DNA of 64,000 nt from Thermodesulfovibrio sp. 3462-1 (GTDB taxonomy: Bacteria; Nitrospirota; Thermodesulfovibrionia; Thermodesulfovibrionales; Thermodesulfovibrionaceae). The position numbers were made by a program, and so were the translations under genes. Positions within the stretch are counted from its first letter, which is position 1. Every line of letters begins with the position of its first letter. The stretch spans positions 62,001-126,000 of the forward strand of contig NZ_CP144374.1 in the NCBI RefSeq assembly GCF_040451425.1, given 5' to 3'. Shown here one piece after another: positions 5,352 through 62,516 of the stretch. Below the pieces are notes generated by a model. It was not told the origin of the DNA, ran no database searches, and saw only the letters and a list, made by a program, of their open reading frames with translations.

Positions 5352-6281
5352 ATGTCCATACAAAAAAGCAAGATTACTGATTTTATTTTTTTAATGATTA
5401 CAGCATTCACAGCCTTCAGTATAATTATAATCACAACTGGCATTTTTTTAGTCCTTTTTAAAGAGTCTCTTCCAGCTATGAATAAATTCGGAGTTGAAGA
5501 ATTTATCTTTTCAACACAATGGGATCCTGTTCAGGAAGTTTTTGGTGCATTGCCTGCATTAACTGGTACTCTAATTACAGCTTGTTTGGCACTCCTGCTT
5601 GCCACTCCAATAGCAATTGGAATAGCAATATTTATTACTGAAATTGCACCTGCATTTTTAAAAAACATTATTGGCACAAGTATAGAACTTTTAGCTGCAA
5701 TTCCAAGTATTATTTACGGAATGTGGGGATTATTCACCCTTGCACCAATAATGAGTCAGAATATTGAACCATTTTTTCAGTCAACAATTGGAAAAGTTCC
5801 TTTAATTGGAAAGCTCTTTGAAGGCACACCTCTTGGTGTTGATCTTTTTACTGCAAGCATTATCCTGAGCATTATGATTATTCCATTTACAGCATCAATT
5901 GCAAGAGACTCCTTCAACCTCACACCAGCGGTGCTTAAAGAATCTGCCTATGCTATGGGGGCTACTAAATGGGAAGTTGTCAAAGATGTTGTAATGCCTT
6001 ATTCGAAGCTGGGAGTTCTTGGAGGCGTTGGACTTTCTCTGGGAAGAGCTCTTGGAGAGACAATGGCAGTTGCCTTTGTTCTTGGCAATTTAAACCAGAT
6101 TCCAAAGTCACTTTTTGAAGCTGCTGCCACTGTTACTGTAAAACTTGCCAATGAATTTACAGAAGCTGATAAGGATATTTATCTAAGCTCGCTTTATTAT
6201 CTTGCTTTCCTTTTATTTATTATGAGTTTTGCAATTCTTGCAATAGCAAAGATTTTTCTTGTAAGAGCTGAAAAAAGATGA
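5352..6281 (+). CDS. pstC: Phosphate ABC transporter permease PstC
   Basis: This 309-residue inner-membrane permease has six predicted transmembrane segments. It carries the MetI-like signature ALGETMAVAFVLGN and the EAA loop around KESAYAMGATKWEVVKDVV, which contacts the PstB ATPase. TTG 5334 lies inside the predicted promoter, so ATG 5352 is preferred. It is then only 9 nt from the -10 box, implying an almost leaderless mRNA. The stop overlaps pstA (ATGA). No pstS or phoU is adjacent, so the binding protein must be encoded elsewhere. Confidence 0.93.
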   Translation: MSIQKSKITDFIFLMITAFTAFSIIIITTGIFLVLFKESLPAMNKFGVEEFIFSTQWDPVQEVFGALPALTGTLITACLALLLATPIAIGIAIFITEIAPAFLKNIIGTSIELLAAIPSIIYGMWGLFTLAPIMSQNIEPFFQSTIGKVPLIGKLFEGTPLGVDLFTASIILSIMIIPFTASIARDSFNLTPAVLKESAYAMGATKWEVVKDVVMPYSKLGVLGGVGLSLGRALGETMAVAFVLGNLNQIPKSLFEAAATVTVKLANEFTEADKDIYLSSLYYLAFLLFIMSFAILAIAKIFLVRAEKR

Positions 6282-7112: not shown

Positions 7113-7871
7113 GTGACCCCTGAAATTGAAGTAAAAAATCTTAATTTTTACTATACTGGAGACATTCACATTCTTAAAAACATTAATATGACAGTTTATA
7201 AAAAAAGTGTTACAGCTTTAATTGGTCCGAGTGGATGTGGAAAAACTACTTTGCTTAGATGTTTTAACAGAATGCATGACCTTTATGCGGGCAATAGATA
7301 TGATGGTGAGATAATTTTCCAGGGCAGAAATATACTTTCAAAAGATACAGACCTGATCGAATTAAGAAGCAAAATCGGAATGGTTTTTCAAAAGCCTACT
7401 CCTTTTCCTATGACAATTTTTGAAAACATTGCCTACGGATTAAAACTCAAAGGGATTAAAAACAAAACAGAATTAAAACATAGAATTGAAAAAGCTTTGA
7501 AAGATGCAGCTTTATGGGATGAAGTGAAAGACAAATTAAATACAAATGCCTTTGGATTAAGTGGAGGACAGCAGCAAAGACTTTGCATTGCAAGAGCATT
7601 GGCAGTGGAGCCTGAAATTATTTTATTCGATGAGCCAACAAGTGCACTTGATCCAATATCTACAGCGAAAATTGAAGAATTAATTGTTTCATTAAAAGAT
7701 AGAGTAACAATTATAATCGTTACTCACAACATGCAACAGGCAGCAAGAATTTCTGACTGGACAGGATTTATGATGCTTGGCGAACTTATTGAGTATGACA
7801 AAACTGACAAAATATTTACCGTTCCATCTAATAAGCTTACAGAAGAATATATAACTGGAAGATTTGGTTAA
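7113..7871 (+). CDS. pstB: Phosphate ABC transporter ATPase PstB
   Basis: This 252-residue ABC ATPase has Walker [11 protein letters not shown]-loop VFQKPTPFP (the PstB-typical version), signature LSGGQQQR, Walker [14 protein letters not shown] and the switch His in VTHNM. GTG 7113 is taken as the start because AGGAGG (7099-7104) precedes it. The longer frame from 7059 runs back into pstA. The stop codon shares bases with the stop of the convergent lipoprotein gene (TTAA at 7868-7871), so the two operons meet with no spacer. Confidence 0.93.
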
Positions 7872-28296: not shown

Positions 28297-28373
28297 GTGA
28301 TTTCTTGTAAACCCTTGATAATTCTTGATGGACGGTAGGGGACTTGAACCCCCGACCTCCAGAGTGCGATTCT
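28297..28373 (+). repeat. attL: 77-bp direct repeat with tRNA-Ala 3' fragment
   Basis: These 77 bases are identical to 35962-36038. The copy contains the 3' part of the tRNA-Ala gene (minus strand, from the anticodon loop to A73) plus 32 bp of downstream flank. After base 28373 the sequence departs from the tRNA, so this is not a functional gene. It marks the left boundary of the integrated element. Confidence 0.92.
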
Positions 28374-28838
28374 TATTCAGGCACTTTCTTATGTTATCCC
28401 ATGTTGTCTTTTCTTAGAAAAATCAAAGAGTTTGCAAAATAGCATTTACCCCTGTTTGCCCTCATTTTTTATTGCTTACTTCACAATTACTTCACATTTT
28501 TTAGTATTACTTCACATTGGTTTTTCCTATAGTAAAGATAGATTTTTTCTATGAAAGGGTATTTTTAGCTTTTGTAATTCTCAAACATTTAACAAAGTTA
28601 ACTTATACAAAAGAATTTATGTAAATAGAAATAGTATTTGTAGAAAGCCCTGTTTTTTTGGGGGTGAAGTAAGGGGGCAGACAGGCAGCTAAACACATCC
28701 AACTGTGTTTTTATGCTTAGACTATGTTTCCTGCAGGAGATACTACAGGACTTCTTGTTGGATACTCTATTAGATAGATAGAGATAGAACTCAGGGCTAA
28801 CTAAGAAAAGGCATAATTATTTTTTTTAAGCTTATTTC
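28374..28838. other. Non-coding left end of the element
   Basis: Apart from three ACTTCACA repeats (28478-28516) and one inverted partial copy (TGAAGTAA near 28675), I see no gene, RNA or terminator in these 465 bases. All frames are short and lack ribosome sites. It lies downstream of the 387-residue minus-strand gene and probably holds the recombination arm sites. Confidence 0.5.
28478..28516 (+). repeat. ACTTCACA array, left end of element
   Basis: Three ACTTCACA copies start at 28478, 28489 and 28509. The first two are 11 bp apart, about one helical turn. Matching pairs lie at 33963 and 35922. They are likely arm-type sites for the integrase or sites for the excisionase. Confidence 0.65.
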
Positions 28839-30002
28839 TTATTGCTGTGTTTTTGTTTTAATAGGAGCAAACACCTGAGGATATTTTTCTCTAATTTCAT
28901 ACACAAGTCTTTCTATGACTTCTATGTTACAAACCTCTTCTTTAAGCAGTTCTCTTATGTTTTGTAATTCTGTTTGTATAGTTTCTCTTTCAGGATGCCT
29001 TTGTATTCTTTTTTGAATTATGCTTCTATACCTGTTTTTGCAAACAGGACAAAATAGGGCAGGACTAAAACAACGAGTGTTAAACCTGCTAAGGCAAAAG
29101 ATGCAGATTGTAGTTTTTTCATAGATTGCTCTCCCTGTAAGTTTTGCAATATCTTGAAGTTCATCACCAATGATTTTTTTCAGCTTACCAATGTTGGTTA
29201 ACTTTCCATCTTTGAGGCAACCTTCATTTAAAAGTCTTTTACGCAACTCGATACATTCATAGGTTAGAATGTCCAATTTGTCTGGCAATTTATCAGGAAG
29301 GGTTAAGAAGAAGTTTTTAAACCACCTTGTCGTATATATAATCATTACATGCTTAATCTCAGACTCTGTAATCTCAGGCTTTATGGTCTCAAGTTCAAAG
29401 AAAGAGACAACTTTTAAAATTTTCTCAAGCTCGTGTTTTTTATAATTACCAAGTGTCTTTCCTAAAAAAGTTTCAGCAAATAAAGGGATGAGGTCCCTTT
29501 CAAAATACTCATCTGGGTTGAAGTATCTCTCAGGGGTTAACTCTTCCTCTTTGAATCTCTTTTTTGAAAAGATTTCAGGAAATAAGGAAGCAAACTTTCT
29601 TCTGGAATGTCTTTCTAATTTTAGTCCTTCTTCATAAAGCTCTTTGACAATCTGTTCGTTTGAGGAAATATTCTCTATCAGGGCTTTCTTAAAGCTCTCT
29701 TTAATTTCAGGAACCTTAAAGAAGACTATCAAGAAAAGAAATACCCACCAAATAGAACTATCCTTTAAATTCCAGGCAAATGCTCCATCCTCAATATATC
29801 CAACTATGCAGTCTTCAGCTTTCCAACCAATCTCTTTATAAACCTCAGACAAAATCTTTAAGCAAACCTGCTTATTTACCTTCTTGGTGTAGCAAACCAA
29901 TAAGTCCTCCCTGTTCCATTCAAGAGATATTAATCTTTTCGGTGTCCACCTCACTTTTTTATGTCCTCCCATCTTCTTTATTGTCTTTCTTAATTTTAAC
30001 AT
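28839..30002 (-). CDS. Unrecognised element protein with cysteine cluster
   Basis: The product of about 387 residues is not a family I recognise. It is Lys/Glu-rich with one strongly hydrophobic stretch (SIWWVFLFLIVFFKVPEI, near residue 90). A C-terminal cysteine cluster (CIFCLSRF ... CFSPALFCPVCKNRY, about residues 310-335) looks like a zinc ribbon, and a helical tail follows. It is the only minus-strand gene of the element and is divergent from the AbrB-like gene with 40 nt between the chosen starts. ATG 30002 is chosen, but ATG 29972 is possible. Position suggests a regulator or stability factor; this is a guess. Confidence 0.55.
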   Translation of the reverse strand: MLKLRKTIKKMGGHKKVRWTPKRLISLEWNREDLLVCYTKKVNKQVCLKILSEVYKEIGWKAEDCIVGYIEDGAFAWNLKDSSIWWVFLFLIVFFKVPEIKESFKKALIENISSNEQIVKELYEEGLKLERHSRRKFASLFPEIFSKKRFKEEELTPERYFNPDEYFERDLIPLFAETFLGKTLGNYKKHELEKILKVVSFFELETIKPEITESEIKHVMIIYTTRWFKNFFLTLPDKLPDKLDILTYECIELRKRLLNEGCLKDGKLTNIGKLKKIIGDELQDIAKLTGRAIYEKTTICIFCLSRFNTRCFSPALFCPVCKNRYRSIIQKRIQRHPERETIQTELQNIRELLKEEVCNIEVIERLVYEIREKYPQVFAPIKTKTQQ

Positions 30003-30042
30003 AAAGACATAGACAAAAAACAAAAAAAAGGAGGTGGGAAAA

Positions 30043-30351
30043 ATGTTTTACAGTTTGCGACAAAGAAAAGATGGCACTTTTGCAGTGAATGTCCCTACAT
30101 GGGTGATAAAGCTGCTAAAGATGCAAATCGGGGATTATGTAGGGCTTGAAGTCAGAAGAGGTGCTATTGTCTTAAATCCAAAACAATACAGTGGCTTTAC
30201 TTACAAACTAAGAAGAAACGGGAGGTATGCAGAGGTGGGAATCCCATCTTGGGTGGTGAAGCAGTTGAGGTTGAAAGCTGGAGATAAAGTAGATTTCTCC
30301 ATACAAGGAGGTAAAGTTCTAATCACGCCAGTAAAGGAGGAGCTATCATGA
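30043..30351 (+). CDS. Tandem AbrB/SpoVT-type DNA-binding protein
   Basis: The 102-residue protein contains two swapped-hairpin units in one chain: VNVPTWVIKLLKMQIGDYVG (residues about 14-33) and VGIPSWVVKQLRLKAGDKVD (about 65-84). Each is followed by a GxIVLxP or GKVLITP strand. AbrB-like domains normally dimerise to bind DNA, so this looks like a covalent dimer. AAGGAGGTG precedes ATG 30043. The stop overlaps the primase start (ATGA), so it is likely the operon's transcriptional or copy-number regulator. Confidence 0.78.
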   Translation: MFYSLRQRKDGTFAVNVPTWVIKLLKMQIGDYVGLEVRRGAIVLNPKQYSGFTYKLRRNGRYAEVGIPSWVVKQLRLKAGDKVDFSIQGGKVLITPVKEELS

Positions 30352-32441
30352 CATTGGAGGAACTTTTGAACAAATTAGAGGGGGTAAAAAAAGTGGGCAA
30401 TAGCTACATGGCCTACTGCCCAGCACACAGTGATAAACATCAGTCATTAAGTGTAAAAGAAACTAATGGTAGAATCTTGCTACATTGCTTTGCAGGTTGC
30501 AGCCTCGAGAGTATTTTGGATGCCTTAGGACTGAAAGTTCAAGACTTATACACAAATCACAAAGAAAAATTTACAGAAGACAAAACAGAGGATAATGAAA
30601 AGAGGATAGTCGCAGTATACGACTATACAAATGAAACGGGGCAGCTGCTCTTTCAGGTTGTAAGATATGAGCCCAAGGACTTTAGGATAAGGCGCTTCGT
30701 GGATGGTAGGTGCGTATACAATTTAGGAGACGTGGAGCCTGTTTTGTACAAACTGCCAGAATTAATCAAATCTCAACAAGTGTTCGTTGCCGAGGGTGAA
30801 AAAGATGCTGACAATCTTGCCAAAATGGGGTTAACAGCGACGACAGCTCCGTTTGGCGCTGGAAAATGGAGAGCAAATTTTAATAAATACTTCATAGATA
30901 AGGACGTTATCATAGTTCCGGATTTTGATGAGGTGGGTATTCAACACTCCTTCAAGATAGAGGAGCAGCTAAAGCCAATAGCTAAGTCCGTAAAAATCTT
31001 GAATCCTGAGTCCTTAAATCTAAAAGAAAAGGGCGACATTTCGGACTGGATTGAAAGCGGAGGAACAAAAGAGCAGCTTCTTGAGATTCTTCAAGAAGAA
31101 AAAAATTTCTTAAGCAAGGAAAAATGGCAAAAGAAAAAAAAAGAAAAAGAAACTTTGAAGCTTCTAAACACAGTAATTGAAGAAATCTACGAGCCAAAAG
31201 CTATCGATTTCCATAATGGAGTTTTAACTTATGGAACTATCTGGAATTCCAAAAAAGTGCTAATCTCAAGCGATTACAAAGTTAAAGAAGTTGAGAACGC
31301 AAACTTTATGTGTTCCAACTTAACACCTGAAATTGCAAAAAGATTTCTTGAAAAGAAAGAAAAAGTAGATGGAGCTGGTCTTGTCCAGGAGCTTGCCAAC
31401 TTTATTGGGAGTCACGTGTTCTTCACGGATGCAAACACTCCAATTTTTCTTGGGATGTGGGTTATTGGAACATACCTTCATCCGCTTTTTATTTACTACG
31501 GGTACCTTTGGATTACCTCACCAATGAAGAGGTGTGGCAAATCCTTGTTATTGGATATTTTGTCCTGTTTATGTTTCAATGCGACTCCACGATTAATAAG
31601 TCCATCAAGTGCCTCATTATTTAGACAGGTTGAGAGTGATTGTAATACTGTAATCCTTGATGAGATGGAGCGAATCAGAACAGATGATGTCGAAACCTAC
31701 CATGATATTATCTCTCTACTTAATGGAGGATTCCAACAAAACTCAGTCATTCCACGAGTCAGTAAAGATAGAAGTCATACAATTCATTACTTCCGAGTCT
31801 ACTCTCCAAAAGTAATTGCAGGGATTAATAAAGTTGCTGACACGATTGAAGATAGGGCGTTCAAAATCATCATGTCAAGGAAAAAAAAGAACGAAAGTGT
31901 TTGCAGATTTAACATCGTAAAAGAGAAAAAAAGAATTGATGAATTAAAGGCGAGGCTTTATTTGTTTTCCCTTAATTTTGCTGAGGAGATTTCTGACGTA
32001 TACCACTCCGCTACAGGTGAATGGAAAGATATCTTTTCCCTTGATGACAGACTTCAAGATATCTCAGAACCAATTTTGTCCATTGCGTCAGTCATCGATG
32101 AAGCTTTTAAAAGCAATTTCTACGACAAAACCGTGGAGTTCATCCTCAAGAAAGGGAGGAAAAGAAGAGACGTTGAAGGAGAAAATTCAGTTAAAGCTTT
32201 CCTGGAGATATTGTCCTCGAAACTCACAGCAGGAGAAAACGAAATCTTTGTTCCCACTTCTGAGCTCTTAAGAGACGTTCAAAACGATGAAAATTTGAAA
32301 TTTATTACGAGCGGCAAAAGACTGTCCCAGTTTATCTCAAATCTTAGCGAGGATGCTCCAACACCAATCCTAAAGCGTGGATTTGGAAGAGGATACCACG
32401 TAAAAAAAGAGTGGCTCGATGAGATGATGGAGAGATATTAA
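30348..32441 (+). CDS. Primase-helicase (CHC2-type zinc finger, TOPRIM, AAA ATPase)
   Basis: The 697-residue protein starts with a primase zinc finger (C24, H27, C47, C51 in MAYCPAHSDK and HCFAGCSLES). A TOPRIM-like domain follows (VFVAEGEKDADNLAKMG, VIIVPDFDEVG). Then comes a DUF3631-like helicase ATPase with Walker A SPMKRCGKS near residue 390 and Walker B VILDEME near 435. A C-terminal winged-helix-like part closes the protein. This is the replication initiator/primase of phage satellites and small integrative plasmids. A repeat-rich region that may be its origin follows directly. It should let the excised element replicate by itself. Confidence 0.85.
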   Translation: MTLEELLNKLEGVKKVGNSYMAYCPAHSDKHQSLSVKETNGRILLHCFAGCSLESILDALGLKVQDLYTNHKEKFTEDKTEDNEKRIVAVYDYTNETGQLLFQVVRYEPKDFRIRRFVDGRCVYNLGDVEPVLYKLPELIKSQQVFVAEGEKDADNLAKMGLTATTAPFGAGKWRANFNKYFIDKDVIIVPDFDEVGIQHSFKIEEQLKPIAKSVKILNPESLNLKEKGDISDWIESGGTKEQLLEILQEEKNFLSKEKWQKKKKEKETLKLLNTVIEEIYEPKAIDFHNGVLTYGTIWNSKKVLISSDYKVKEVENANFMCSNLTPEIAKRFLEKKEKVDGAGLVQELANFIGSHVFFTDANTPIFLGMWVIGTYLHPLFIYYGYLWITSPMKRCGKSLLLDILSCLCFNATPRLISPSSASLFRQVESDCNTVILDEMERIRTDDVETYHDIISLLNGGFQQNSVIPRVSKDRSHTIHYFRVYSPKVIAGINKVADTIEDRAFKIIMSRKKKNESVCRFNIVKEKKRIDELKARLYLFSLNFAEEISDVYHSATGEWKDIFSLDDRLQDISEPILSIASVIDEAFKSNFYDKTVEFILKKGRKRRDVEGENSVKAFLEILSSKLTAGENEIFVPTSELLRDVQNDENLKFITSGKRLSQFISNLSEDAPTPILKRGFGRGYHVKKEWLDEMMERY

Positions 32442-32476
32442 TGAAAATTTTTGTTTTTAATGTATATTTCCGAAAA

Positions 32477-32620
32477 CAAAGTGTTACATATGTTACATTT
32501 GGCATAAAATCAAGGGTTTGCGAGGATTTTTCAAAGTGTTACAGATACCCTTTTGTAACACTTCAAAAAAAGCCCGTAAACCTGCATAAAATCAACATTT
32601 GTAACATATGTAACACTTTG
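32477..32620. repeat. Candidate replication origin: iteron-like TGTTACA inverted repeats
   Basis: Two 25-bp inverted repeats (32477-32501 and 32596-32620, two mismatches) each hold GTGTTACATATGTTACA or its complement. Between them, AAGTGTTACA (32534-32543) and TGTAACACTT (32554-32563) form a perfect 10-bp dyad. GCATAAAATCAA is directly repeated at 32502 and 32584. A TATATATATAAA run follows at 32630-32640. The layout, directly behind a primase-helicase, fits a replication origin. An operator for the downstream genes is the alternative. Confidence 0.6.
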
Positions 32621-32675
32621 ATTTGGGGTATATATATAAAAAGAAAAATTTTCACAAAAAGGAGGGTGTCTAAGG

Positions 32676-33380
32676 ATGGGAGAGATAGCAAAAAGGGTAG
32701 TTGAAAAATTAGGGTTAAGTTATGATAAGAGGCTTGTTAGAGAAGAGACCGTTAAAGAAGAGATAGACTCTGCTGTCCTAAGAGAACAAGTTGACAAACT
32801 AATAGAAGAAACTCTTGAGAGGATAAACAAAAAATATACTCCAGGGCTTATTGAGTGGGCTAAGAAAAATGAACCTGACATTTGGAAAAAGATTTTAGAG
32901 ATTGAAGAAAGGATAAACTTCTTCTTTAAGCCTAACGTCTCTTTTACGCAGAAAAGCTTTAAAGAGCTAAAGGACATATTAGGAGAGTATGAAAGCCTCT
33001 ACCTTCTTCTTTGTGGTTATAGAGAGCAGGCAGAGCAAACTGTAACCTCAACTAATGATAAACTTGATGAAGATATTTATCTATGGGAGGCAAACAACAA
33101 ACTCAAACCTAAAGAACCAAAAACTTTAAAACACTCTTTAGAAGTGTTTAATGAAGTTGTAAATGCAGAAACTAAACAGGAAGATAAACAAAAGACTCGT
33201 ATACCTCAACCAACCGCTCAACATAAAGAAGGCATCAATCTCAACAGACCTTGTGTTATATGTGGAAGTGACAGTTGGATAATTCTTAAGCCTAATCAAA
33301 GACACTCAGCCATAGAATGTTTAAATTGTGGGCATATTGAGCTCCATATCTTTAACAAGGGTGGCCAATATGATTTGTAA
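32676..33380 (+). CDS. Unrecognised element protein with C-terminal zinc ribbon
   Basis: The 234-residue product is mostly helical and charged (KLIEETLERINKKY, FKELKDILGEYESLYLLLCGY). A disordered linker follows (residues about 145-190) and then a zinc ribbon CVICGSDSW ... CLNCGHIELH. A good ribosome site (AAGGAGGG) precedes it. It is the first gene after the candidate origin and overlaps the next gene by 11 nt. Zinc-ribbon tails like this often bind DNA or RNA. No function can be assigned. Confidence 0.6.
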   Translation: MGEIAKRVVEKLGLSYDKRLVREETVKEEIDSAVLREQVDKLIEETLERINKKYTPGLIEWAKKNEPDIWKKILEIEERINFFFKPNVSFTQKSFKELKDILGEYESLYLLLCGYREQAEQTVTSTNDKLDEDIYLWEANNKLKPKEPKTLKHSLEVFNEVVNAETKQEDKQKTRIPQPTAQHKEGINLNRPCVICGSDSWIILKPNQRHSAIECLNCGHIELHIFNKGGQYDL

Positions 33381-33735
33381 GAACTGCAATAAAGAATTTA
33401 CTCCTACAAGACAGAACAGAAGCTTTTGCTCTTATTCTTGTAGGACAGAGTATAGAGATAGATACCTGAAAGCTTATGCTAAGCAATACAGAGCTAAAAA
33501 TAGACTTCAGAACTCATTTAAATGCCTTTCTAAGCCTGTAAACAGTATAGGCAAGGAATTTATCTTTGATGACTGCTGTAATGCAGAGATGAAAAAGAAA
33601 ACAGGCTACTGTATTACTCTTTATGAACCATACTTCCTTTTTAAAGGCAATTGCTCTCAATGCAGGATTTATCAAGCTTTCAAAATAAAGGGGAGTATTA
33701 ATGGAAATAAAGCTTACAGAAGAAGAACTCAATAA
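33370..33735 (+). CDS. Small zinc-finger protein
   Basis: The 121-residue product begins MICKNCNKEFTPTRQNRSFC and continues SYSCRTEYRDRY, a CxxC...CxxxC zinc knuckle of the kind found in phage and plasmid accessory proteins. A second cysteine group (DDCCNAEM, GYCITLY, NCSQCRIY) lies in the C-terminal half. ATG 33370 overlaps the upstream stop. The 3' end overlaps the HTH gene by 35 nt, so the three genes form a coupled set. Confidence 0.6.
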   Translation: MICKNCNKEFTPTRQNRSFCSYSCRTEYRDRYLKAYAKQYRAKNRLQNSFKCLSKPVNSIGKEFIFDDCCNAEMKKKTGYCITLYEPYFLFKGNCSQCRIYQAFKIKGSINGNKAYRRRTQ

Positions 33736-33961
33736 GCTTGCTGAGTTAGTTGCAGATAAACTTAAGGATAAAATAGCTGAGTTAATTAATAAGCAAGATG
33801 AGGTCTTAAGCTTTACTGAGGCTTGCTCTTATCTTAAGTGTCCTTCTTCCTGGCTATACAAGGCAGTCTCTCAAGGCAAGGTTCCTCATATAAAAGCTGG
33901 AAAATACTTGAAGTTTAGAAAGTCTGAGCTTGACAGTTGGTTAAAAAGAAGGTCAAAGTAA
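33701..33961 (+). CDS. Excisionase-like helix-turn-helix protein
   Basis: The 86-residue protein has a MerR-type/HTH_17 domain: LSFTEACSYLKCPSSWLYKA, VSQGKVPHIKAGKYLKFRKS, ELDSWLKRR. This is the usual form of Xis proteins and plasmid/phage regulators. It lies upstream of the integrase operon and its stop is 1 nt before two ACTTCACA repeats. The inferred role is a recombination directionality factor that binds these repeats. Confidence 0.75.
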   Translation: MEIKLTEEELNKLAELVADKLKDKIAELINKQDEVLSFTEACSYLKCPSSWLYKAVSQGKVPHIKAGKYLKFRKSELDSWLKRRSK

Positions 33962-33962
33962 T

Positions 33963-33982
33963 ACTTCACAATTTACTTCACA
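33963..33982 (+). repeat. ACTTCACA pair behind the excisionase gene
   Basis: Two ACTTCACA copies (33963-33970 and 33975-33982) are 12 bp apart and lie directly after the HTH gene stop. They match the arrays at both ends of the element. The site may let the HTH protein or integrase control the downstream promoter at 34027. Confidence 0.6.
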
Positions 33983-34026
33983 GTCTTTGTAAGTGATTGA
34001 TTTATAAAGACAAAACAGTAGGGCTC

Positions 34027-34055
34027 TTGATTAGTCATCTGAGGATTTATATAAT
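34027..34055 (+). promoter_or_regulatory. Promoter of the cargo-integrase operon
   Basis: TTGATT (34027-34032) and TATAAT (34050-34055) are separated by 17 nt. This is a near-consensus promoter 85 nt upstream of the lipoprotein gene. It would drive the lipoprotein, the repeat protein and the integrase. The ACTTCACA pair ends 44 nt upstream. Confidence 0.6.
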
Positions 34056-34139
34056 AAAAAAACAGATAAAAAAATAGAGATAAAAAGAAAAGCTTTTTGG
34101 TTATATTGCTTTAGCAAAAATAAAAATGGAGGTTTTAAA

Positions 34140-34559
34140 ATGCGAGAACTAAAAACCATTTCACCAAAACCAATTGTATTATGTAGTGCCTTGATTTTTT
34201 TATTAGCAGGTTGCACTCAATATGTGTGGAAAGCCCCGCCAGGAAAGGGCTATTTTGAAGCAACACTTGATTATCAAGAATGTCAAAACTATGCTAATAC
34301 CCTTTATCCCCAAAAGCCTTTACCAGAGCCCGAAATAAGTGGATATAACTGCTCCGGGAGCAGTCATGGTAGCACTTATTATTATAGCTTTGGAAGCTCA
34401 AGCTCTTACTCAAACTATAATCTCCAATGTAAGCCAGTATATGACTACACTAAAAGAAATTGGGCACAAATAGGCGAAAATATAAAAGCGATTGCAAGAG
34501 ATAAGGCATTTAGAGAATGTATGGAAGGAAAAGGATATAGGTATGAACCAAAAGAATAA
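34140..34559 (+). CDS. Element-encoded lipoprotein
   Basis: The 139-residue protein has a lipobox (LIFLLAGC, Cys near residue 25). The mature part contains YQECQNYANTLYP, a Ser/Tyr/Gly-rich middle (YYYSFGSSSSYSNY) and RECMEGKGYRYEPKE at the end. The paired cysteine motifs (QECQ and RECMEGKGY) are common in small bacterial outer-membrane lipoproteins of unknown function. It is likely cargo acting in the host envelope, for example a surface modifier. GGAGG precedes the start. Confidence 0.68.
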   Translation: MRELKTISPKPIVLCSALIFLLAGCTQYVWKAPPGKGYFEATLDYQECQNYANTLYPQKPLPEPEISGYNCSGSSHGSTYYYSFGSSSSYSNYNLQCKPVYDYTKRNWAQIGENIKAIARDKAFRECMEGKGYRYEPKE

Positions 34560-34602
34560 TACAAAGAGCCGTTCAATATTAAAGGAGAGGAGGTAAGTAC
34601 AA

Positions 34603-34884
34603 ATGAGAAAAATAAGTAGTATAGCCTGCGTTGTTTTTGTATTCTTAGCTTTTTTCCTATCAAGGTCAGCCTTCTGTTTTGACAGTAGTTTTAGTGATTT
34701 CGGTGACTACGGAACAACAAAAGAAGATAGACTAAGATACAACCCTTTTGAAAACGAATGGAGTTATGAACCTGAAGATGCTCGCTTGAAGTACAACCCT
34801 TTTGAAAACGAATGGAGTTATGAACCTGAAGATGCTCGCTTGAAGTACAACCCTTTTGAAAACCGTTGGGAGTGGGCGCATTAA
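34603..34884 (+). CDS. Secreted YNPFENEW-repeat protein
   Basis: The 93-residue product has a Sec signal peptide (FVFLAFFLSRSAFCF). Three copies of an 18-residue unit with core YNPFENEWSYEPEDA follow (the third ends YNPFENRWEWAH). The stop overlaps the integrase ATG (TAATG at 34882-34886), so integrase translation is coupled to this gene. The core reads like the short aromatic repeats found in small envelope proteins of other bacteria. I know no function. Confidence 0.62.
   Translation: MRKISSIACVVFVFLAFFLSRSAFCFDSSFSDFGDYGTTKEDRLRYNPFENEWSYEPEDARLKYNPFENEWSYEPEDARLKYNPFENRWEWAH
34729..34878 (+). repeat. 54-bp tandem repeat in the secreted protein gene
   Basis: The period is exactly 54 bp: the shared start AACCCTTTTGAAAAC occurs at 34741, 34795 and 34849. 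The first two units match almost base for base, and differences concentrate at the outer edges. Such DNA-level identity indicates recent duplication, with copy number likely to vary. Confidence 0.85.
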
Positions 34885-35948
34885 TGAAACACAGAGGCAT
34901 TTATAAGCGTGGTAGAATTTATTGGATTTGTTATGTAGATGCAGTAGGCAAGCTAAGAAGAGAAAGCACAAAGTCAACCAACGTTCACACTGCTATCAGT
35001 CTTCTTGCTAAGAGAAGGGCTGAGGTAATGGAAGGCAAGCTTCCAGTTACAACCATTAAGAAGTATACATTCCAGGAACTTGCAGAAAGGTATACAGAGT
35101 ATGTCTCTATTCAGAGAAGCTATAGGAAATTTAAAAGCTATATCATTCAGAGGCTAAAAGAAAGATTTGCTGATATGCCACTTAAAGCATTTAACACACA
35201 GATTGTTGAACAACTGCAAGTTGACCTTATAAAAGAAGGTAGGAAACCAGCAACAATTAACAGAACAATAGCTGTTCTTAAACATATGCTGAGAAAGGCT
35301 CAAGAATGGGACATGATAGAAGAGGAAATCTTAAAGAGAGTCAGAAAAGTTGGCACTCTAAAAGAAAACAACCAAAGGTTAAGATACCTTACAGAGGAAG
35401 AAATACAGAAACTGCTTTCATGTTGCGATAAGCATCTTTATCCGATTGTATTAACTGCACTGTCAACAGGTATGAGAAAAGAAGAAATCCTGAGCTTAAA
35501 ATGGGATAACATAGACTTAAAGAATGGCTACATCCATGTAGAAAAGACAAAAAATGGTGAAAGAAGAGATATTCCAATTAATGCAACTCTCTTTAAAACC
35601 CTGAGAGAACTTTACATTAACAGAAGGATTGATACTCAGTATGTCTTTGTAAACCCTGAAACAGGCACAAGATACTATGACATCAAAAGAGCCTTTAGAA
35701 CAGCACTAAAGAAAGCTAAGATTGAGGATTTCCGCTTTCATGACCTAAGACACACATTTGCAAGCCACCTTGTAATGAAAGGAGTTGACCTAACAACAGT
35801 CAAAGAACTCTTAGGACATAAAGAACTAAGAATGACCTTAAGATACTCTCACTTAGCACCTGAACATAAAAACAGAGCAATAGCTTGTCTTGATGGTTTG
35901 TTTTCAACAACTGTGAATTCTACTTCACAATTACTTCACAATTTTTAA
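34884..35948 (+). CDS. int: Tyrosine integrase of the element
   Basis: The 354-residue recombinase has an N-terminal arm-binding segment (RGIYKRGRIYWICYVDAVGK), a SAM-like core-binding domain (FQELAERYTEYVSIQ) and the catalytic domain. The catalytic residues are R198 (STGMRKEEI), K223 (KTKNGE), H286 and R289 (FHDLRHTFASH), H312 (LLGHKEL) and Tyr321. ATG 34884 is used; a TTG 18 nt upstream lies in the preceding gene. The 3' end carries ACTTCACA repeats and reaches to within 14 nt of the right repeat. It integrates the element into tRNA-Ala. Confidence 0.9.
   Translation: MKHRGIYKRGRIYWICYVDAVGKLRRESTKSTNVHTAISLLAKRRAEVMEGKLPVTTIKKYTFQELAERYTEYVSIQRSYRKFKSYIIQRLKERFADMPLKAFNTQIVEQLQVDLIKEGRKPATINRTIAVLKHMLRKAQEWDMIEEEILKRVRKVGTLKENNQRLRYLTEEEIQKLLSCCDKHLYPIVLTALSTGMRKEEILSLKWDNIDLKNGYIHVEKTKNGERRDIPINATLFKTLRELYINRRIDTQYVFVNPETGTRYYDIKRAFRTALKKAKIEDFRFHDLRHTFASHLVMKGVDLTTVKELLGHKELRMTLRYSHLAPEHKNRAIACLDGLFSTTVNSTSQLLHNF
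35922..35940 (+). repeat. ACTTCACA pair at the right end
   Basis: Two copies (35922-35929 and 35933-35940) are 11 bp apart and lie inside the last codons of the integrase gene. They mirror the left-end array. They sit 22 bp from the right repeat, where arm-type sites of a tyrosine integrase are expected. Confidence 0.65.
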
Positions 35949-35961
35949 TTTTTAAGGAAGT

Positions 35962-36038
35962 GTGATTTCTTGTAAACCCTTGATAATTCTTGATGGACGG
36001 TAGGGGACTTGAACCCCCGACCTCCAGAGTGCGATTCT
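35962..36038 (+). repeat. attR: 77-bp direct repeat within the tRNA-Ala gene
   Basis: The block is identical to 28297-28373. It spans the 3' flank and 3' part of tRNA-Ala and ends inside the anticodon stem, so the crossover is expected at or near the anticodon loop. The tRNA is restored because the element carries its own copy of the 3' part. Confidence 0.92.
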
Positions 36039-36066
36039 GGCGCTCTCCCAACTGAGCTAACCGCCC
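35994..36066 (-). tRNA. tRNA-Ala (CGC)
   Basis: On the minus strand the gene folds as a full cloverleaf of 73 nt. The acceptor GGGCGGU pairs with ACCGUCC and contains the G3-U70 pair that identifies alanine tRNAs. The D-arm is GCTC/GAGC. The anticodon stem CCAGA/UCUGG has loop AUCGCAC (anticodon CGC, reading GCG). The T-arm is GGGGG-TTCAAGT-CCCCT. CCA is not encoded. It is the target of the integrative element on its 3' side. Confidence 0.95.
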
Positions 36067-60627: not shown

Positions 60628-62516
60628 GTCTTTTTAGTGATTTTGATATTTATCTTTTTAAAGAAGGAAATCATTTCAATGCTTATGAAAAGCTTGGTTC
60701 TCATATTATTGAAGTTGATGGGCAGAAAGGAACATATTTTGCTGTGTGGGCTCCAAATGCTGAAAAAGTTTATGTTATAGGAGATTTTAACGGATGGTCT
60801 CTAAATCATCCTCTTGCTCCACGTTGGGATAGCTCTGGTATATGGGAGGCTTTTATTCCTGGCGTTGATAAAGGAACAAAGTATAAATACTATATAATTT
60901 CCAAATATGGTTACCATCTTCAAAAAGGAGATCCTTACAGCTTCTTCTGGGAAACACCTCCAGCTACTGCATCAATAGTCTGGGATTTAGAGTATAAATG
61001 GGCTGATGATGAATGGATGAAAAATAGAGCTAAATACAATAGCCTTAGCTCGCCAATATCAATTTATGAAGTTCATCTTGGCTCATGGAGAAGAGTTCCT
61101 CAGGAAGGAAATAGATTTCTTACATACAGGGAACTTGCCGAATGGTTACCAAAGTATGTAAAAGATATGGGATTTACACATGTTGAAATTTTACCTGTTA
61201 TGGAGCATCCTTTTTATGGTTCCTGGGGATATCAAACAATTGGATATTTTGCACCTACAAGCAGATATGGAACTCCGCAGGATTTTATGTATCTTATTGA
61301 TAGCCTTCATCAGCATGGGATAGGTGTAATTCTTGACTGGGTTCCGTCTCATTTTCCTCAGGATGGTCATGGACTCAGCTTTTTTGACGGAACTTATCTT
61401 TATGAACATCAGGATCCAAAAAAAGGATATCATCCTCATTGGCACAGCTACATTTTTAATCATGGAAGAAATGAAGTTAGAAACTTTCTTATAAGTTCTG
61501 CCATTTTCTGGCTTGAAAAATATCATGTTGATGGATTAAGAGTTGATGCAGTGGCTTCAATGCTTTATCTTGATTATGGAAGGGCTCCAGGAGAATGGAT
61601 TCCAAACAAATATGGAGGCAAAGAAAACTTAGAGGCAATAGAATTCATAAGAAGATGTAATGAAACAGTCTATGAAAAATATCCTGATACTCAGACAATT
61701 GCTGAAGAATCTACTGCCTGGCCACTTGTGACCCGCCCCACCTATCTTGGAGGACTTGGCTTTGGTATGAAGTGGAATATGGGATGGATGCATGACACAC
61801 TGAGTTATTTTTCAAAAGACCCAGTTTACAGAAAATATCATCACAATAACCTTGCTTTCAGCATCTGGTATGCTTTTTCTGAAAACTTTGTTTTGCCTCT
61901 TTCTCACGATGAAGTTGTTTATGGTAAAGGCTCTCTTTTAAATAAAATGCCTGGAGACAACTGGCAAAAATTCGCTAATCTGAGACTTCTTTTTGGATAC
62001 ATGTATGCCCATCCAGGTAAAAAACTTATTTTTATGGGAGGAGAGTTTGCCCAATGCAATGAGTGGTATCATGAAGAAAGCTTACATTGGCATCTTCTTG
62101 AATATCCTCAGCATCAAGGAATTCAAAGATTGGTAAAGGATTTAAACAATCTTTATAAAAATGAACCAGCCCTTCATGAGCTTGACTTTGATCCATCAGG
62201 TTTTGAATGGATTGATTTTACTGATGCAGAGCAAAGTATAATAAGTTTTCTAAGGAAAGGAAGGGACCCAAAACAACTAATCTGTGTAGTATGCAATTTT
62301 ACGCCAGTTCCGAGATTTAATTACAGAATAGGAGTTCCTTTTAGGGGTTACTGGAAGGAGGTTTTAAATACTGATTCAGAGCTTTATGGAGGAAGCAATT
62401 GTGGCAACATGGGAGGATTGATGACTGAAAACCTCTCTATACATGGAAGACCTTACTCTTTAAATTTAACTTTACCTCCTTTAGGAGTTTTATTTTTAAA
62501 ATGGCAAGATGAATAA
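60612..62516 (+). CDS. glgB: 1,4-alpha-glucan branching enzyme
   Basis: The 634-residue GH13 enzyme has an N-terminal CBM48 ([20 protein letters not shown]) and the catalytic barrel with [11 protein letters not shown] and [10 protein letters not shown]. The nucleophile is in [20 protein letters not shown], the general acid Glu in [10 protein letters not shown], and the third Asp in [13 protein letters not shown]. It adds alpha-1,6 branches to glycogen. No glgA, glgC or glgP gene is in view. Confidence 0.94.

Follow-up and report, generated by a model that had tools for sequence, protein, structure and literature searches.

The 64,000-nucleotide stretch analyzed here (positions 62,001 to 126,000 of contig NZ_CP144374.1 of Thermodesulfovibrio sp. 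3462-1, hereafter the 64-kb window) carries, at a tRNA-Ala gene, a 7.67-kb element that as a whole is best explained as a compact integrative and replicating satellite-type island, a reading that we consider probable. Its integrative and replicative part is very likely, and a phage as the vehicle of its spread is plausible, at a little under an even chance. From its gene content, the element appears able to excise and replicate itself but not to travel alone. It belongs, as one branch, to a broad class of islands of the satellite type, a kind known in outline; the new detail lies in the branch, the host phylum, the form of the candidate origin, and the layout of the putative arm sites. The host is labelled G000 and same-genus genomes G001 onward, and loci taken from other genomes or from elsewhere in the host carry L labels (e.g. 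L043 from G001 and L039 from G004).

The element is bounded by two identical 77-bp direct repeats lying 7665 bp apart and enclosing 7.6 kb (Table 1), as the original prediction, made from the sequence of the window, had described. The placement in a tRNA-Ala gene is likewise borne out: attR spans the 3' 45 nt of tRNA-Ala(CGC) together with 32 nt past the gene and, because it includes the 3' end, the tRNA is whole after integration. The proposal that relatives might show an unoccupied site led to congener G002, in which a single att copy joins the left and right flanks without interruption, so that a lack of empty-site relatives, named beforehand as a refutation, does not apply; an SNase gene lies on the left and, on the right, what we take from its sequence type to be an FMN (flavin mononucleotide)-dehydrogenase-like gene. 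In five congeners, the site used by the window element is taken up by other elements or by integrase remnants, none of them shown to be a prophage. Integrase remnants lie beside the same tRNA-Ala(CGC) in G001, G014, G007, and G009 (L037, L038, L045, and L050, respectively), so that decay is common there; the site is one that is occupied and emptied again and again.

Within these borders, gene A diverges from B-C-D-E-F, which is followed on the same strand by G, H, and the integrase gene (int). Neighboring genes overlap at B-C (as ATGA), D-E, E-F, and H-int, and these overlaps make two operons likely, B to F and G-H-int. Profile searches recover the predicted integrase, excisionase-like protein, primase-helicase, and tandem AbrB regulator (Table 1); for the primase-helicase, the matches are to CHC2 (E 9.5e-6) and to a PHROG primase (E 5.6e-34), the DUF3631 match being weak in Pfam. 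The two exported cargo proteins, G and H, also stand as predicted. The integrase is 66% identical to that of an element in G001, which also encodes, at the same position, a homologue of gene A (30% identity) that was found in none of the other 294 of the 296 Nitrospirota genomes searched. Gene A is a candidate regulator or initiator; its predicted structure (predicted local distance difference test, pLDDT, 47) is too poor for a fold search, as is the model of gene D (pLDDT 55), for which Pfam, PHROGs, and NCBIfam gave no family match. Homologues of gene E (36-41% identity) occur in tRNA-Ala(GGC) elements of G005, G011, and G015, and gene G has no homologue in the other 295 Nitrospirota genomes searched. 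Gene H contains 54-bp tandem units (34738-34863) that are 100% identical and encode an 18-amino acid unit with YNPFENEW; judged from their sequence, these units are a recent expansion. A single other Nitrospirota genus shares a similar motif, as does a Thermus plasmid; within the phylum, gene H is otherwise confined to one other genus.

In the same three databases, no element protein matched a capsid, terminase, relaxase, coupling, secretion, or transfer family, in agreement with the original prediction, nor a structural or lytic phage gene. A prophage was therefore rejected for its missing structural genes, and an integrative and conjugative or integrative and mobilizable element for the missing relaxase, coupling protein, and secretion genes. 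Defense cargo was also rejected, the PADLOC matches being weak and to the primase and helix-turn-helix (HTH) domains alone, as were CRISPR spacer matches, since the 28-43-bp matches inspected are A-rich low-complexity stretches. A scan for sigma-70 promoters and terminators gave no excess over chance, and viral contigs yielded no relatives of the primase, of A, D, or G, or of a lipoprotein of the G001 element.

Table 1. Features of the element, in window coordinates
Feature	Position	Strand	Basis
attL, distal copy of 77-bp direct repeat	28297-28373		Identical to 35962-36038; one copy in G002 empty site
Arm-type cluster 1, TTACTTCACA x3, left end	28476-28516	+	Repeat counts
Gene A, up to 394 aa, C-terminal CxxC...CxxC; start 30023, 30002, or 29972	28839-30023	-	G001-element homologue, same place
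Gene B, tandem AbrB/MazE-type DNA-binding protein; alternative GTG start 30034	30043-30351	+	PF04014, E 1.1e-8, two stretches
Gene C, primase-helicase: CHC2 zinc finger, Toprim-like, DUF3631-like ATPase (Walker A and B)	30348-32441	+	Profile matches
Imperfect palindrome, 213 bp, six TGTTACA iterons, candidate replication origin	32442-32654		Fold, self-match, iteron count
Gene D, 234 aa, helical, C-terminal zinc ribbon	32676-33380	+	No family match; low-confidence model (pLDDT 55)
Gene E, small zinc-finger protein	33370-33735	+	Homologues in other tRNA-Ala elements
Gene F, excisionase-like HTH_17 protein (xis)	33701-33961	+	PF12728, E 7.6e-12; TIGR01764, E 4e-11; 54% identity to G001-element xis
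Arm-type cluster 2, x2, directly after xis, upstream of G-H-int operon	33961-33982	+	Repeat search
Gene G, exported lipoprotein, cargo	34140-34559	+	Lipobox LLAGC read from sequence
Gene H, exported cargo protein with 54-bp repeat units; its stop overlaps the start of int	34603-34884	+	Signal-peptide-like start read from sequence
int, tyrosine recombinase; R, HxxR, H, Y motifs present	34884-35948	+	PF00589, E 7e-40
Arm-type cluster 3, x2, right end, within int 3' end	35920-35940	+	Repeat search
attR, tRNA-proximal copy of 77-bp direct repeat	35962-36038		Repeat identity
tRNA-Ala(CGC), integration target, intact	35994-36066	-	tRNA overlapped by right repeat

The candidate origin that had been predicted is borne out as a sequence feature, a palindrome that starts one base past the stop codon of the primase-helicase gene, and its role as a replication origin is still that of a candidate. 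Folded as DNA, it reaches -53 kcal/mol compared with -19.9 +/- 3.2 for shuffled sequences (z -10.4; no shuffle was equally stable), and it matches itself at E 1e-31. Six TGTTACA copies fall within 134 bp of the palindrome in inverted sets, against an expectation of about 7 per 64 kb, and at 28% GC, compared with 36% for the element, it exceeds every other part of the element in AT content. A multicopy miniature inverted-repeat transposable element was considered and rejected, as no other match exists in the host or in 15 congeners. The element of G004, which uses this tRNA as well, shows a 214-bp palindrome (L039:12211-12424, E 1e-21) at the 3' end of its own, different primase gene, and in both cases the palindrome at this position is the strongest of its locus. 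Across 24 primase loci, a significant palindrome at the primase 3' end was found in 5, against 0.9 expected; at L043, the strongest fold lies at the primase 3' end but failed the strict palindrome test. As a separate observation, L082 has a 106-bp inverted repeat (7689-7794, E 6e-16) upstream, not downstream, of its primase gene. Phage-inducible chromosomal islands (PICIs) have an origin with two iteron sets, placed directly 3' of their replication gene (PMC6092414). The palindrome resembles it in position, iterons, and AT-richness, except that here the iteron sets stand in inverted orientation and together make up a single palindrome.

Repeats of the TTACTTCACA type occur in three clusters, all on one strand and with 11-20 bp spacing; ACTTCACA is present in 7 copies in the element, compared with a mean of 0.37 and a maximum of 3 in shuffles. 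Other elements show this arrangement, wholly or in part, with different sequences. L043 carries TGACACAG at the equivalent three places and L072 carries CGTTAGAA in an equivalent three-place layout. In L039, the repeat is TATCACA, present at each end, and a weaker middle copy lies within xis; in L071, at least the two ends carry repeats. A repeat whose sequence varies by element while its places remain fixed fits integrase arm sites, and these element-specific repeats look like such sites. Because the middle cluster heads the G-H-int operon, its position suggests autoregulation by the integrase, which is familiar in outline from other integrases.

The G001 element mentioned above is a sister of the window element and, with further Nitrospirota loci, answers the proposal to look for the same gene order in relatives. 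It occupies 9.6 kb at tRNA-Ala(GGC) (L043:6191-15838) between 44-bp repeats at 6191 and 15795 and encodes, in order, the A homologue, a short protein in the AbrB position, an 824-amino acid Prim-Pol/CHC2 protein, a 147-amino acid protein, Xis, exported proteins, an HTH protein, and the integrase. Both elements thus share the order A, AbrB-position gene, primase, xis, exported cargo, int, as well as a tRNA-Ala target and arm repeats at three places, whereas the sister differs in its size, its Prim-Pol replication protein, its tRNA-Ala(GGC) target, and its cargo, which comprises Adhesin_E, BamE-like, and phrog_3135 proteins. The last, a lipoprotein, matches this phage family at 7.5e-10. In a deltaproteobacterium (L154:1357-5062), homologues of two of the G001 cargo proteins (3e-40) lie between a terminase large subunit gene (TerL, 1.6e-105) and the gene of a related integrase; by these matches, the cargo is common to different phyla. 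Blocking superinfection is a frequent role of small exported prophage lipoproteins; for G and H, which are exported yet unmatched, both this role and a likeness to phage-type lipoproteins, drawn through the G001 cargo, would be matters of analogy only.

Beyond the genus, primase matches were found in 54 of the 296 Nitrospirota genomes, and the order primase, xis, integrase, tRNA recurs across the Nitrospirota loci examined. In seven of them, direct repeats of 27-71 bp mark the borders of a 6-11-kb island; the tRNA genes used are those for Lys, Met, Ser, Arg, Pro, Leu, and Val. Some carry packaging genes: L070 and L081 have phrog_83 terminase small subunits (1e-9 and 2e-7), and L073 has two terminase small subunits (3e-24) and a head maturation protease (5e-48). 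These terminase small subunits are the reason for preferring a satellite over an unexplained island, and class members with packaging genes probably travel in phage particles. L073:5755-13957 is in itself of interest as a candidate satellite, an 8.2-kb tRNA-Ser island of another Nitrospirota genome with packaging genes and no capsid gene noticed. The statement in the original prediction that no described family is known with this gene set is not supported, given this recurrence, the terminase small subunits and head protease of some relatives, and a layout that overlaps those of PICIs and of the phage-inducible chromosomal minimalist islands (PICMIs).

Satellites of the P4 type, of about 11 kb, have a tRNA site, a primase-helicase, and a Vis-like regulator; the element resembles them in its tRNA site and primase-helicase but has no psu, delta, or sid-like gene (Pfam, PHROGs). 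It also differs from capsid-forming PICIs, as capsid and packaging genes of its own were not found. PICIs of the Gram-negative type comprise an integrase, a small HTH excisionase/regulator, a fused primase-replication protein, and accessory cargo, with no structural genes (PMC6092414). The element matches this description in its integrase, small HTH excisionase, primase-helicase, iterons in the origin position, cargo, and lack of structural genes, although for the master regulator genes A and B are candidates only. The att site of PICIs is never occupied by prophages, and among the occupants of the tRNA-Ala site in the five congeners none is shown to be one. PICIs are also induced by phages and packaged into helper particles; for the element, no helper was found in the host. 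At 7.67 kb, it is smaller than PICIs (12-15 kb), its int reads toward the tRNA and is located at the opposite end to the regulators, terS is absent, and no interference genes were recognized. PICMIs of Vibrionaceae have a tiny gene set that includes a PF00589 integrase, an HTH_17-type AlpA, a primase, and a gene overlapping int, with no capsid-remodelling genes (PMC10803314). The PF00589 integrase, the PF12728 match (PICMI AlpA being PF05930/PF12728), the primase, and the gene overlapping int are shared with the element, whereas its primase is CHC2/Toprim with a DUF3631-like ATPase rather than DUF3987 with DUF5906, its target is tRNA-Ala rather than fis, and its host belongs to a different phylum. 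Tycheposons are summarized as cargo elements of 4-200 kb in aquatic bacteria with a tRNA border and a tyrosine recombinase (PMC10872708), and the element resembles them in having a tRNA border, a recombinase of the tyrosine type, and cargo.

A life cycle can be proposed for a satellite-type island of this form. In the integrated state, the products of A and of the divergently transcribed, AbrB-like B would repress the B-C-D-E-xis operon, and upon induction, the primase-helicase and Xis would be made together. Int and Xis would use core sites within the 77-bp repeat, together with the arm-type repeats at both ends, to excise a 7.67-kb circle, on which the primase-helicase would start replication at the palindromic iterons that adjoin the 3' end of its gene. 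Through the middle arm-type cluster, the integrase would probably damp the G-H-int operon, cargo included. Spread would require a helper, most likely a phage packaging the circle in capsids, which is favored in view of the terminase small subunits encoded by architectural relatives. The exported cargo would most likely alter the envelope, one example being the exclusion of other phages.

Several results count against this proposal. Neither a terminase gene nor any other gene for packaging or for interference with capsids was recognized in the element in the three databases, and no prophage was detected in the host. TerL is nowhere convincing in the host and, among 16 congeners, is clear in G003 and broken in G014; a PF04860 portal or GpA-type TerL was found in neither the host nor any of the 16, and no relative of the window primase or of gene A was found in IMG/VR. 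A significant palindrome at the primase 3' end is absent from 19 of the 24 primase loci, and the functions given to the origin and arm sites are inferred from position and statistics. Transfer by conjugation is an alternative, in which the element would excise and replicate and be conjugated by the relaxase and coupling protein of a resident island through a mimic of its origin of transfer (oriT). The host does carry a 15.2-kb island at tRNA-Arg(CCT) between 44-bp repeats (G000:C1 about 1055948-1071137; L267, L268) with a TrwC relaxase (8e-53), a TrwB coupling protein (1.5e-104), xis, an integrase, and a DnaB/RepA-like ATPase; strong TrwB-type coupling proteins are present in 7 of 16 congeners, phage markers being rare, and integrases of the window family serve coupling-protein islands in G015 and G004. 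The integrase family spans several phyla with mostly different neighbors and is by itself not diagnostic. However, the element has no relaxase, and its similarity to the tRNA-Arg island is confined to the integrase gene (65.7% over 99 bp, E 4e-6), the rest being no better than E 0.02, so that no oriT mimic is seen. VirB4 is lacking from the island and was above cut-off in no congener (matches near 1e-29 in G002 and G014), the host match being weak, so that the resident island has no visible secretion channel; we regard this route as rather unlikely.

An unlikely explanation, too, is a small integrative plasmid that excises, replicates, and then spreads by natural transformation or vesicles with no dedicated helper. 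Its appeal lies in a self-contained replication and integration module with no packaging or transfer genes found, and in relatives of the primase-helicase on small plasmids typed as non-mobilizable, such as the 14.9-kb pSR14 of Salinibacter ruber; pSR14, however, has a terminase-family gene downstream of its primase, which points back to phage packaging. It is improbable that the element is what is left, stranded or in decay, of some larger phage or conjugative element and no longer moves: integrase remnants at the same tRNA in four congeners and the recent tandem units of gene H would agree with it, but all genes are open with their start/stop overlaps kept, the att copies are identical, the catalytic motifs of the integrase are intact, and the iteron and arm repeats are preserved. 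A bolder form of the satellite-type island reading, in which the element would represent a distinct Nitrospirota satellite lineage with no packaging genes, a palindromic origin next to the primase gene, a three-site integrase layout, and envelope cargo in an integrase-autoregulated operon, is doubtful; if true, it would mean that superinfection exclusion is set by the integration state.

Known satellites come from a few well-studied hosts, and the same economy is met here in a phylum that branches deeply and has many uncultured members. The analysis yields a bounded element with an empty site, a sister element, a candidate origin, and att arms, and makes testable the question of whether an island with replication and integration genes alone can spread, and whether phages or conjugative elements serve it as helpers. 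Elsewhere in the window, an open reading frame at 1755-2234 encodes a four-helix bundle that by eye is S23-like. It is flanked (1696-2350) by near-identical TTGAAC/GTTCAA-rich repeats, both ending in AATGTAATTACGGAGG, and this region looks like a small inserted cassette.

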